A program made the position numbers and the translations under genes. The notes under the pieces were generated by a model. It did no database searches. It saw only the letters and a list, made by a program, of their open reading frames with translations, and was not told the DNA's origin. Of a DNA stretch of 37,084 nucleotides, positions 8,410 through 18,671 are shown one piece after another (position 1 is the first letter of the stretch; each line of letters opens with the position of its first letter). The stretch lies in assembly GCA_009778325.1 (NCBI GenBank), contig WRJZ01000027.1, positions 1 through 37,084 on the forward strand. Direction: 5' to 3'. Origin of the DNA: Candidatus Endomicrobium neocapritermitis (GTDB lineage: Bacteria > Elusimicrobiota > Endomicrobiia > Endomicrobiales > Endomicrobiaceae).

Positions 8410-10980
8410 ATGAACAAATGGCTGAAAATTATTATAGCGCCGATAGGTTTAATTATTTTTATAGCGGCGATTGCGCTTCTTCATAACGAGTTAAAACATT
8501 TAAATTATGCGGATATCATCAACTCTTTAAAAGCCATCCCTTCCGCCAGAATCGGCATAGCGATGTGTCTGGCGATTTCATATTATATTCTTTTGGGCGG
8601 TTATGACATAGTCGCGTTCAAATATATTGACGCGAAAGTTCCTCTTAAATTTAAAGACATTTTTTTTACGTGCTTTGTAAGCAATGTGCTCGGTAGCAAT
8701 ACCGGATACTCCATGCTTTTCGGCGGGTCCGTAAGATACAGGCTTTATTCATTTCACAATGTTTCGATGGTTGACGTTACGAAGGTGCTGCTTTTTTCAT
8801 CGGCGACAATATGGCTCGGCCTTCTTGCCATAGGCGGATTATTTTTTACTTTCACTCCTGTTTCCCTTGCGGGAATAACAAAATTTTCTTTTACGACCAG
8901 ACCGATAGGAATATTATTTCTTACTATTTTATCGTCTTACGTGCTTCTCAGCATTTTTAAGTCAAAACCTGTTAAGTTTTTTAAGTGGCGGATAACTTTT
9001 CCCAATATAAAAATAGTCACCGCGCAGATAATTCTTGCCGCGGGAGACTGGATAATCGCTTCGCTTACGCTTTATGTGCTTATGCCGGCCGGAGAGATTC
9101 CTTATTTTATACTTATAAAAGTTTTTCTTGTTTCACAGCTTCTCGGGATATTGAGCCAGGTTCCTGGAGGAATGGGAGTTTTTGAAACAGCGATAATTTT
9201 TCTTTTGCCGCATGCGGCCGATAATCCGGCAGTTATGGGCGGCCTTCTCGCTTACAGAGCCGTGTTCTACTTTTTTCCTCTTGCGATAGCGCTGTTTATG
9301 CTCGCTTCTTATGAAATAGCCAGAATCAGCAAAACAATAGACGAAAAAACCAGAATTTTCGGAAAATCAATTTCTTCGGTTATAGTGCAGGTTTTGGCGA
9401 TGTCCACGTTTTTTGCCGGCATGATTGCGATGTTCAGCACTTCCACGCCGTACAGCTATGCGAAACTGCATGATTTGCTTAACTACATTCCAATGTGGCT
9501 TTTTGATCTTTCGCATTTTCTTTTAAGCACAACGGCTGCCGCGCTTTTGTTTATTTCAAGAGGATTGCAGCTAAGGATAAAAAATTCTTATGTGTGGGCA
9601 TGCGTTTTAATGGGCTTAACGATTGTGCTTTCAATATTGACTGCGCTGCCGTTAATGGTTCTTATCGGATTTATAATTTTGTTTGTGGCTTTGCTTTTTT
9701 CCAAAAAATATTATTACAGAGAAGTTGCGCTTGTGGACACGGCTTTCAGCCCGTGGTGGTTTTCTGCAATAGGCGGAGTGTTTGTTTTATCGGTCTGGAT
9801 AGGCTTTTTTGTTAACAGGCAGTATATTTTTTATTGGATACATTTGGAAGTTTTCTTTGAAAATATGTTCAGCCCGAGCGATACGGCAAGATTCTTAAGA
9901 GCTACCTTCGGGGTAGGCGTTATACTTATTATCGTGGCAATAGAGCAGTTTGTAAGAAACTTTTTCAGAAAACCCGTAGTGTTTGACGGACAAGACATTA
10001 AAAATATAGTTAACATGTCCGATTACTCTTATGCTTTTAACGCTTTATCCGGAGATAAAAAGTTTATTGTCAGCAAAGAAAAAGACGCTTTTATAATGTA
10101 TGCCCCGATGAGAAACAGCTGGATTGCTTTGGGCGACCCGGTAGGCAGCCCTAACGGAAAGAGCGAACTTTTATGGAATTTTAAAGAAATAACGGACAGA
10201 GAGGGCGTAAAGCCCGCTTTTATAGCGATAGACCAGAAAAATGTACAGTTTTACGACGACATAGGCCTTGATGTTTTTAACATAGGACAGGAAGCCAAAG
10301 TTCCTCTGAGGACGCTTCATAAAAACGAGAACACGATGACGTATTTCAATAAACTTACCGCGCAGGTTGAATCGGAAGGTTATGAATATGAGGTGATTCC
10401 CCCGGAAAAATTTAATGAAAATAAAGAAACATACGACACTATAAATAAAAAGTGGAAAGACAATTCCAGCTATATAGAAAGAAATTTTTTACCCGGAAAA
10501 TATGACGAATCTTACATGAAAGACATGAATTTCGGCATTGTGAAAAAAGACGGCAAGATGTGCGCTTTTTCCGTTATAGCGGCGTCAAAAAGCGGTTACG
10601 AAGCGTCAAGCGGGGTCGTCAGATATATGAACTGTACTCTGAATATTTTTGAATACCTGCTTTTTAAAAATATGCTTTGGGCAAAGTCAAACGGATATAA
10701 ATGGTTTGATTTGGGGCTTACTTACGCTCCGGATACCGATAATGACAATGATATCATGAAAAGATTCGCGAAGATGTTTATGTTTGCCGAGTATTTTAAT
10801 TACGATCTCGCAAAGCTCAAAGAATTTAAAGATAAATTCTGCCCCGTATGGCATAACAAATATGTCGCGGTTCATCCGGATAAATATATCAATATGTTTG
10901 TGGTAAACTTTTCGGCTCTGATAACTCCGCCGAAAGAAAAAAGTAAAAAATTATTTTTCAAAAGGCTTTTTGTAAAATGA
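8410..10980 (+). CDS. mprF: Bifunctional phosphatidylglycerol lysyltransferase/flippase MprF
   Basis: The protein has 856 residues, typical of full-length MprF. Residues 1-510 contain about fourteen membrane helices. The first part (to about 305) is the UPF0104/LPG-synthase TM domain, including the SQLLGILSQVPGGMGVFET segment characteristic of that family. Residues about 520-845 are the cytoplasmic DUF2156 (GNAT-like) domain that transfers an aminoacyl group from tRNA to phosphatidylglycerol; IALGDPVG and the WFDLGLTYAP region are visible. The product, lysyl- or alanyl-phosphatidylglycerol, lowers membrane negative charge and gives resistance to cationic peptides. Which amino acid is used cannot be read here. 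AAAGGA precedes the ATG. The stop overlaps the tilS start by four bases (ATGA), so translation is coupled. Confidence 0.92.
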   Translation: MNKWLKIIIAPIGLIIFIAAIALLHNELKHLNYADIINSLKAIPSARIGIAMCLAISYYILLGGYDIVAFKYIDAKVPLKFKDIFFTCFVSNVLGSNTGYSMLFGGSVRYRLYSFHNVSMVDVTKVLLFSSATIWLGLLAIGGLFFTFTPVSLAGITKFSFTTRPIGILFLTILSSYVLLSIFKSKPVKFFKWRITFPNIKIVTAQIILAAGDWIIASLTLYVLMPAGEIPYFILIKVFLVSQLLGILSQVPGGMGVFETAIIFLLPHAADNPAVMGGLLAYRAVFYFFPLAIALFMLASYEIARISKTIDEKTRIFGKSISSVIVQVLAMSTFFAGMIAMFSTSTPYSYAKLHDLLNYIPMWLFDLSHFLLSTTAAALLFISRGLQLRIKNSYVWACVLMGLTIVLSILTALPLMVLIGFIILFVALLFSKKYYYREVALVDTAFSPWWFSAIGGVFVLSVWIGFFVNRQYIFYWIHLEVFFENMFSPSDTARFLRATFGVGVILIIVAIEQFVRNFFRKPVVFDGQDIKNIVNMSDYSYAFNALSGDKKFIVSKEKDAFIMYAPMRNSWIALGDPVGSPNGKSELLWNFKEITDREGVKPAFIAIDQKNVQFYDDIGLDVFNIGQEAKVPLRTLHKNENTMTYFNKLTAQVESEGYEYEVIPPEKFNENKETYDTINKKWKDNSSYIERNFLPGKYDESYMKDMNFGIVKKDGKMCAFSVIAASKSGYEASSGVVRYMNCTLNIFEYLLFKNMLWAKSNGYKWFDLGLTYAPDTDNDNDIMKRFAKMFMFAEYFNYDLAKLKEFKDKFCPVWHNKYVAVHPDKYINMFVVNFSALITPPKEKSKKLFFKRLFVK

Positions 10981-16410: not shown

Positions 16411-17183
16411 TGGATTCGTTAACTTTTTTTGAAATTTACACAAAATATATCGCGAATATACTTGATATAGGCATACTTGCGTTTCTGTTTTACAGGATAA
16501 TTTTAATAATTAAAGGCACAAGAGCCATACAAATTATTCTGGGCATTCTTGTAATTCTTGTTATAACGATTATTGCCGAAGATATTCTTCATTTAAAGGC
16601 TTTAACATGGCTTTTGAGCAACTTTTGGCTTGCGGCGGTAATTATTTTCACTGTTGTGTTTCAATTTGAAATCAGAGGCGTGCTTGCGCAGATTGGCAGC
16701 AATATATGGGGAAACAGCGGCAATATAAAAGATTCCTACATTAAAGATATTGCCGATGCCGTCGAAGAGTTGAGCGCCGCGATGTCCGGCGGCCTCATCG
16801 CGATTGAAAATGACGTCGGTCTTAAAAATTTTACCGAAACTGGCGTAACGCTTAACGCAGATATTTCAAAAGAACTGCTTCTGTCGATTTTTAAAAATAA
16901 ATCCGCTCCGCTTCACGACGGCGCGGTTATCATATATAATGAAAAAATCATCGCCGCCGGATGTTTGTTTCCGTTAAGCCATGATACCGACGTAAAACTG
17001 TACGGCACCAGACACAGGGCGGCGCTCGGTTTAAGCGAAATAACGGACGCTTTGATAATTGTAATTTCCGAAGAAACGGGACATATTTCCATCGCGCATA
17101 AAGGCAAATTGAAAAGCAATATAACAATTAATAAACTTAAAGAAATAATAGCTGACAGCGGCGGAGCGTTAAAGTCAAGATGA
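16410..17183 (+). CDS. cdaA: Diadenylate cyclase CdaA
   Basis: The protein has 257 residues. I place the start at the ATG 16410-16412, which shares a base with the folP stop and has GGGAGAGG upstream; a TTG one codon earlier is less likely. Three N-terminal membrane helices (about 10-85) precede the DAC domain. The catalytic motifs are intact: APLHDGAVII (D-G-A, near 166) and GTRHRAALGLSE (R-H-R, near 198). The enzyme makes cyclic di-AMP from two ATP, a messenger for cell-wall and ion homeostasis. The usual operon partners are cdaR and glmM. Here glmM is intact but cdaR is reduced to 35 residues. Confidence 0.96.
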   Translation: MDSLTFFEIYTKYIANILDIGILAFLFYRIILIIKGTRAIQIILGILVILVITIIAEDILHLKALTWLLSNFWLAAVIIFTVVFQFEIRGVLAQIGSNIWGNSGNIKDSYIKDIADAVEELSAAMSGGLIAIENDVGLKNFTETGVTLNADISKELLLSIFKNKSAPLHDGAVIIYNEKIIAAGCLFPLSHDTDVKLYGTRHRAALGLSEITDALIIVISEETGHISIAHKGKLKSNITINKLKEIIADSGGALKSR

Positions 17184-17287
17184 AAATAATAAATAAAATA
17201 TTCGCTAAAATCAAAAAAAACTGGCATCTCAAGCTTTTGGCATTAGGGCTTGCGGTTGCCGTCTGGTTTTACGCGATTTGCAGGTAA
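17180..17287 (+). pseudogene. cdaR: Remnant of cdaR (YbbR-domain regulator), N-terminal anchor only
   Basis: This 35-codon reading frame starts with ATG at 17180, overlapping the cdaA stop, and ends with TAA at 17285-17287. Its sequence includes KKNWHLKLLALGLAVAVWFY, a close fit to the start of YbbR/CdaR proteins: a charged patch, N-W-x-x-K-(L/I)-L-(A/S)-L, then a membrane helix ending in W-F/L-Y. All YbbR domains that should follow are missing; glmM begins four bases later and leaves no room. It could be a decayed gene, or a retained small membrane protein that also carries the glmM ribosome binding site (AGGTAAAAAA). The frame itself has no internal stop. Confidence 0.75.
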
Positions 17288-17291
17288 AAAA

Positions 17292-18671
17292 ATGAAATTA
17301 TTCGGAACTGACGGCATCAGAGGAGATTCGTCTAAATTTCCGTTTGATAACGATACGCTTTTTGTTATCGGCAAATCAATCGCGGAAATTTTAGGTGGAC
17401 AAAAGCGTATACTTATTATCCGCGATACGCGAGAATCCGGCAGGCGGATTCAGACCGCTCTTGCAAAAGGCATTGTAAGCGCCGGCTCAAAAGTTATTTT
17501 CGGCGGAGTGCTGCCCACTCCGGCAGCTTCGTTTTTATTAAAAAACGGCAAATATTCCGCGGGCATTGTTATTTCGGCCTCTCATAATCCTTATCAGGAC
17601 AACGGTATAAAAATTTTCAATTCAAAAGGAGCAAAGCTTACGGATGCCGTTGAAAATAAAATAGAGAAGAAAATTTTATCGTCATTGCAGATTCCGAATG
17701 ATAGACAACAAGTTCAACATGGCAAATCTGTTTCCTTAAACGTAAAAGAAGACGCTTCTCTTATGAAAAAATATGAACGGTTTGTTATAAAAAATTTCGG
17801 CAAAGGTTCTCTGAAAGGCAAAACAATAGTCAGCGACTGCGCTAACGGGGCTGTCTGCGAAAGCGCCGTGAATGTTTTAAGAAAGCTTGGCGCAACAGTG
17901 AAAGTTTTGAACGTTAAACCCGACGGAAAAAATATAAACCTGAGTTGCGGAGCTCTTCATCCCGAATTCGCGGCGGAAATGGTAAAGCAAAGCAAAGCTT
18001 TTTGCGGTTTTTGTTTTGACGGCGACGCGGACAGGCTTATATGCATAGATGAAAACGGAGATATTAAAGACGGCGATTTTTTTCTCGGTTCTATGGCTAA
18101 ATTCCTCAAAAGCAAAAAAAAGCTTAAAAATAACGTTTTAGTCACTACGGTAATGGCAAATATCGGTCTTATAAAAGCAATGAAAGAAGCGAAGATTAAA
18201 GTCATAACCTCCAAAGTCGGCGACAGGTACGTTCTTGAAGATATGAAGAAATATAAATCTTCTTTAGGCGGCGAACAGTCGGGGCATTTTATTTTCAGGG
18301 ATATTCTCGGTACCGGCGACGGACTTTTGAGTGCGGTTAAGCTGCTTGCAGCTTTAAATTCGGAAGGCAAAACAATGTCGCAGATGTTTTCGGGAATTGA
18401 AAAATTTCCCCAGGTGCTGGTTAATAAAACGGTGGAAAATAAAATTCCTTTTGAAAATCTGCCAAAGAGCTCGGATCTTATAAAGAAATATGAAAAAGAG
18501 CTTGGTTCAAACGGGAGAATACTTGTAAGATATTCAGGCACAGAAAATCTTTTAAGAGTGATGGTTGAAGGACAAAATATACAATCCGTAAAAAAAATGG
18601 CAAATGAAATAATTTCGTGCGCGGAGAAAGAGATTGCGGATCAAGTCCGCAATGACGATAACAGAGGATAA
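17292..18671 (+). CDS. glmM: Phosphoglucosamine mutase
   Basis: The protein has 459 residues from the ATG at 17292. The frame is open 14 codons further up, but that overlaps the cdaR remnant, and MKLFGTDGIRG is the standard family start. The phosphoserine loop SASHNPYQDNGIK, the metal loop DGDADR, GGEQSGHFIF and the C-terminal phosphate-binding RYSGTENLLRVMVEG are all intact. It converts glucosamine-6-P to glucosamine-1-P for peptidoglycan and LPS precursors. In Firmicutes CdaA/CdaR bind GlmM and regulate c-di-AMP synthesis. The last residues (IADQVRNDDNRG) are encoded by a palindromic repeat, an odd C-terminal extension. pdxJ starts directly after the stop. Confidence 0.97.
   Translation: MKLFGTDGIRGDSSKFPFDNDTLFVIGKSIAEILGGQKRILIIRDTRESGRRIQTALAKGIVSAGSKVIFGGVLPTPAASFLLKNGKYSAGIVISASHNPYQDNGIKIFNSKGAKLTDAVENKIEKKILSSLQIPNDRQQVQHGKSVSLNVKEDASLMKKYERFVIKNFGKGSLKGKTIVSDCANGAVCESAVNVLRKLGATVKVLNVKPDGKNINLSCGALHPEFAAEMVKQSKAFCGFCFDGDADRLICIDENGDIKDGDFFLGSMAKFLKSKKKLKNNVLVTTVMANIGLIKAMKEAKIKVITSKVGDRYVLEDMKKYKSSLGGEQSGHFIFRDILGTGDGLLSAVKLLAALNSEGKTMSQMFSGIEKFPQVLVNKTVENKIPFENLPKSSDLIKKYEKELGSNGRILVRYSGTENLLRVMVEGQNIQSVKKMANEIISCAEKEIADQVRNDDNRG
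18633..18652. repeat. Palindromic repeat within the 3' end of glmM
   Basis: ATTGCGGA (18633-18640) and TCCGCAAT (18645-18652) form an 8-bp stem with a TCAAG loop minus one base, followed by GACG. From memory the string ATTGCGGA-TCAAG-TCCGCAATGAC matches a palindromic repeat common between genes in several bacterial phyla. Here it is read in frame as IADQVRND. Confidence 0.6.

Follow-up and report, generated by a model that had tools for sequence, protein, structure and literature searches.

The short open reading frame that separates cdaA from glmM in Candidatus Endomicrobium neocapritermitis probably encodes a genuine small membrane protein, here termed mini-CdaR, which represents CdaR in an anchor-only form and would supply CdaA with a fourth, detachable transmembrane helix, thereby setting the assembly or activity of this cyclase. 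We estimate the probability of this interpretation to be approximately 0.78. That the frame is translated, which way the peptide spans the membrane, whether it binds CdaA, and how strongly and in which direction it affects c-di-AMP synthesis are all deduced, from comparative genomics and published work on CdaR.

An anchor-only frame in the cdaA operon

The window, meaning the entire 37,084-nucleotide stretch of DNA that was analyzed, carries the gene order folP-cdaA-(35 codons)-glmM-pdxJ, wherein folP is recognized by its Pfam Pterin_bind domain. The HDGA and RHR motifs of the DAC domain are evident in an alignment of the cdaA product, and the adjoining glmM product carries mutase domains (Table 1), as in the classical three-gene operon in which cdaR resides directly 3′ of cdaA and ahead of glmM. 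The frame found at this location is intact, and its 35-amino-acid translation is MKIINKIFAKIKKNWHLKLLALGLAVAVWFYAICR. The ATGA sequence shared by the two genes suggests that translation of the peptide may be coupled to that of cdaA, and the same start offset of -3 relative to cdaA is present in 34 of 73 related loci.

A preliminary description of this region had reported that the frame overlaps the stop codon of cdaA, that glmM begins four bases past the stop codon of the frame, that the ribosome binding site of glmM is kept, and that all YbbR domains are gone. Each of these statements agrees with the data presented here, although the ribosome binding site is only a plausible AGG inside the final sense codon of the peptide. 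The extracytoplasmic YbbR domain of the CdaR family (PF07949) is lacking from the frame. The search for this domain elsewhere, as had been recommended, is positive in control genomes such as that of B. subtilis but yields no match in the genome analyzed here, which is 2.38 Mb in size and 100% complete. There are also no YbbR remnants 3′ of the mini-CdaR frame. Because the frame encodes only 35 amino acids and the genome lacks PF07949, we refer to the peptide as anchor-only CdaR-like and not as CdaR proper.

Table 1. Positions of features in the cdaA-glmM region of the window
Feature	Position	Strand	Description	Basis
cdaA	16410..17183	+	membrane diadenylate cyclase, CdaA_N three-helix domain and DAC	Pfam PF02457 (E=1.2e-39), PF19293 (E=4.8e-7)
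mini-CdaR	17180..17287	+	anchor-only CdaR frame, 35 aa	sequence, profile match, pN/pS
mini-CdaR start/cdaA stop overlap	17180..17183	+	ATGA	sequence
conserved transmembrane helix	17219..17272	+	signature Nx3Kx2[AS]x3[AS]x3W (N14 K18 A21 A25 W29), one conserved face	conservation moment
AGG of plausible glmM ribosome binding site	17282..17284	+	within final sense codon of the peptide	sequence and inference
mini-CdaR stop codon	17285-17287	+	4 nt before glmM ATG (17292)	
glmM	17292..18671	+	phosphoglucosamine mutase, gene 3 of the classical cdaA-cdaR-glmM operon	Pfam PGM_PMM I-IV

No family in Pfam or NCBIfam matches the peptide, and no solved structure matches either the peptide or the profile described below; relatives of CdaA among solved structures include one long entry (9g69), and no CdaR anchor was found among them. 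Other components of the pathway may also be encoded in the genome, for which a single TrkA_C protein and two DHH proteins are candidates only. No structural RNA or tRNA was found within the window. A separate observation concerns positions 8410-10980, which encode a seemingly ordinary 856-amino-acid protein whose C-terminal domain is of the phosphatidylglycerol lysyltransferase type (MprF-like), located upstream of a tilS-like gene.

Conservation of the helix within and beyond Elusimicrobiota

Comparison of this junction in about 85 loci of relatives reveals that nearly all CdaA loci examined in Elusimicrobiota carry a frame of 24 to 50 codons with a single helix 3′ of cdaA, or have this helix joined to CdaA itself. 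Each of the five genomes of the genus has the frame after cdaA. Among 21 pairs of related genomes, pooled pS is 0.351 and pooled pN is 0.076 (pN/pS 0.22; Fisher p=2e-42), and this coding constraint on the frame is as sought for a translated small protein.

A profile (A1) made from 51 short peptides, among them the one from the window, matches the mini-CdaR frame at E=1.4e-15, and no other place in the genome is matched by this self-inclusive profile at E<=1. Roughly 160 of 341 Elusimicrobiota genomes are matched at E<=1e-3, nearly always adjoining cdaA, which itself was found in 224 of the 341. Likewise, translation of the window in all six frames gives a single occurrence of the signature Nx3Kx2[AS]x3[AS]x3W, at 17219, and elsewhere the signature is located downstream of or within CdaA, with one off-target occurrence in the approximately 789 kb searched. 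Selection, profile specificity and these signature counts rule out a chance frame or a generic hydrophobic helix.

When information per position is followed along the helix, the best period is 100 degrees (p=0.0005), such that one helix face is conserved; K18, A21, A25 and W29 are some of the positions with the strongest signal. This periodicity is the pattern expected of a helix that packs on another helix. The N-terminal flank is more positive than the C-terminal flank in 40 of the 51 sequences, which is consistent with an N-in, C-out orientation.

The same profile recognizes the N-terminal helix of full CdaR proteins encoded directly after cdaA in other phyla. Among the segments searched, examples from Omnitrophota (L120), Desulfarculaceae (L121) and Pelovirga (L131) have E values near 1e-9 to 1e-10. 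On the basis of this profile match and the spacing of the signature, the anchor of mini-CdaR is homologous to that of CdaR. Mini-CdaR and the CdaR/YbbR proteins of Firmicutes and others thus have in common their place after cdaA, a single N-terminal anchor helix, the helix signature, and ATGA coupling in many loci. However, mini-CdaR carries no YbbR domain, is 24 to 50 amino acids long compared to about 130 to 550, and has nothing substantial outside the membrane.

Omnitrophota carry the helix in 177 of 237 genomes, and in the loci compared (L225-L255) it is encoded directly or shortly after cdaA, with pdxJ as the next gene in most. Among 150 listed frames from this phylum, measured from stop to stop, lengths are trimodal (76 up to 100 amino acids, 26 at 135 to 182, and 48 over 280), and about half are anchor-only. 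Thus, three length classes of CdaR (anchor-only, about 150 amino acids, and about 320 amino acids) exist within one phylum. YbbR domains are absent from 13 of 13 anchor-only genomes of Omnitrophota, whereas they are present in 13 of 13 genomes with full CdaR. A FastTree reconstruction of CdaA (227 rows) requires at least three changes between the with-YbbR and anchor-only states and at least four between the fused and split states, although these are rough counts given the weak deep support of the tree.

Gene neighbors and fusions to CdaA

We sorted 125 Elusimicrobiota CdaA loci by an automatic pass with hand assignment, in a set that contains some near-duplicate loci and a few from the same genome or species. 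These comprise 90 loci with a split anchor-only peptide, 14 CdaA-anchor fusions, 10 CdaA-anchor-YbbR fusions, nine with none, and two that were left unclassed. Only five of the 341 Elusimicrobiota genomes have YbbR at all, four of these as CdaA fusions (G081, G267, G276 and G277); for the fifth (G084), there is no CdaA in the stretch compared.

Fusions of CdaA to the bare helix occur in family f29, where in all nine genomes examined CdaA reads on through a linker into a final helix that carries the anchor signature, and then ends (L206-L210, L212, L217, L219, L221 and L224). The fused helix carries N268-K272-A275-[S/A]279-W283, with the same spacing as in the short peptides. In one f29 genome (G290), there is an additional CdaA (L214) that lacks a helix in its tail. 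Separate in-frame CdaA-anchor fusions are present in three genomes of the same family as the window (G026, G027 and G034) and in G195. Families f28, f20, f21, f26 and f14 have CdaA joined to both the helix and one YbbR domain, and the helix signature is again associated with the same kind of cyclase. These proteins differ from mini-CdaR in that they form one polypeptide with one YbbR domain and, in several instances, have a DHH phosphoesterase gene downstream instead of glmM. The Nx3Kx2[AS]x3[AS]x3W signature is common to the short peptides, to many full CdaR anchors, and to helix four of the CdaA fusions. For two of the natural fusions, AlphaFold predicts the extra helix with only moderate confidence (pLDDT about 50-70).

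The YbbR-bearing fusions are about 385 to 450 amino acids long (L085, L088-L090, L213, L215, L216, L218, L220 and L222). The DHH-type phosphoesterase gene lies immediately 3′ of several of them, possibly pairing the synthesis of c-di-AMP with its breakdown. One genome (G081) has both arrangements, with one CdaA accompanied by a separate anchor-only peptide (L061) and a second CdaA fused to YbbR (L085).

Among 73 loci, glmM comes next in 51, a phosphorylase gene in eight and pdxJ in six. The retention of the frame beside these other genes, together with the fusions, links the peptide to CdaA and not to glmM. In genus g8, whose reduced genomes are smaller than 1 Mb, cdaA is broken by stop codons and the adjoining peptide frame is eroded (L051, L081 and L086), which suggests joint loss of the system. 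There are also CdaA loci where the anchor peptide is missing. Family f8 (L072, L073, L077, L079 and L083) has gyrB directly after cdaA and no CdaR or anchor peptide nearby or convincingly elsewhere, and the peptide is likewise lacking at L201, L203 and L204.

Alternative explanations and proposed function

The preliminary description offered two alternatives for the junction: either the regulator was lost and its start kept for translational coupling, or a CdaA-binding membrane peptide is still made. If the frame were simply a device to carry ribosomes from cdaA to glmM, with a product that has no function, then the ATGA overlap, the glmM ribosome binding site embedded at the 3′ end of the frame, and the frequent presence of glmM as the next gene would be readily explained. 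This idea is very unlikely to be correct, as evident by the conservation of the amino acids on one helix face, by the persistence of the frame with other genes downstream, by the fusion of the helix to CdaA elsewhere, and by the same short frame ahead of pdxJ in Omnitrophota. Coupling to glmM as the sole reason for keeping the start does not agree with the comparative evidence, which sides with the second alternative, for which binding is predicted from genomics and from published two-hybrid work on full-length CdaR.

A decaying remnant of a recently truncated cdaR is hardly credible. The peptide does correspond to the N-terminal piece of CdaR without its YbbR part, but the short form extends throughout the genus, the family and most of the phylum under purifying selection, and no left-over YbbR sequence lies downstream. 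The earlier view that cdaR has been reduced to a 35-residue anchor is thus correct regarding the anchor-only frame found here, but not regarding a local reduction, since in most of the phylum the short form is what is normally present. Neither a complete cdaR in related genomes nor a complete copy at another site was found when these were sought in this genome and its family, and the proposed comparison of the junction instead returned a conserved short product with more synonymous than non-synonymous change. A functional peptide whose main partner is something other than CdaA, for example in recruitment of GlmM or in association with FtsH, is improbable, although less so than the preceding two explanations. 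GlmM is the other partner in the operon, and in one genome (G006) cdaA has been relocated before a pyrB-like gene (L033) while the peptide frame stays directly upstream of glmM (L180, G006:C34); moreover, an FtsH-type gene is located in the window, three genes upstream of cdaA. However, the several fusions and the retention of the peptide beside cdaA where glmM is missing favor CdaA as the partner.

Two-hybrid assays with full-length CdaR are reported to place the contact of CdaR on the membrane region of CdaA and that of GlmM on the cytoplasmic domain (PMC6368335, PMC8573169, PMC8316131). Full output of DacA in Chlamydia requires YbbR (PMC12422730), whereas for S. aureus no conclusive regulatory effect of YbbR was found (PMC6368335), and the mode by which CdaR controls CdaA is described as unclear (PMC8573169). 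From the fusions and these papers on CdaR, we infer that the peptide binds and modulates CdaA.

We propose that mini-CdaR would be translated in a manner coupled to cdaA and inserted as a single helix, such that its N-terminus, rich in Lys and Arg, stays cytoplasmic and hardly any of the peptide protrudes on the outer side. The conserved N/K/A/A/W face would then pack on the three-helix membrane domain of CdaA, so that the diadenylate cyclase would gain a fourth transmembrane helix, separable from the enzyme, by which its assembly or activity is set. The YbbR domains that ordinary CdaR carries outside the cytoplasm, and which are probably the sensing part, would be dispensed with. It is the fusions and the conserved face that lead us both to this role for the helix and to the view that, when YbbR was lost, an arm for sensing the outside disappeared and not the function.

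Small single-helix proteins such as KdpF, AcrZ and MgtR regulate membrane enzymes and transporters. Mini-CdaR is likened to these only by mode of action, in which a short conserved helix tunes a larger membrane protein, and differs in that its kinship to a larger regulator is visible. We found no description of an anchor-only or small CdaR, or of YbbR in connection with Elusimicrobia, in the open-access literature searched, and an earlier account may exist elsewhere.

All YbbR domains have been removed and the anchor kept over most of one phylum and in about half of the listed frames of another. That the anchor was retained in this manner and also fused to the enzyme on separate occasions indicates that the helix is the working part, and suggests that the essential part of CdaR is the anchor and not the missing outer domains. 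We would give even odds to the broader proposal that the essential core of CdaR is the helix alone, a fourth helix that CdaA requires for assembly or switching. This helix may be supplied in trans as a microprotein of 30 to 40 residues or in cis by fusion to the enzyme, or it may form the base from which a larger sensor extends. If so, two phyla would make c-di-AMP largely without an extracytoplasmic CdaR sensor, and would rely on a subunit that is too short for many gene finders. The anchor-only forms provide minimal constructs for studying the CdaR helix, and with mini-CdaR, an enzyme of importance in second-messenger synthesis would gain a further subunit in the form of a conserved small protein.
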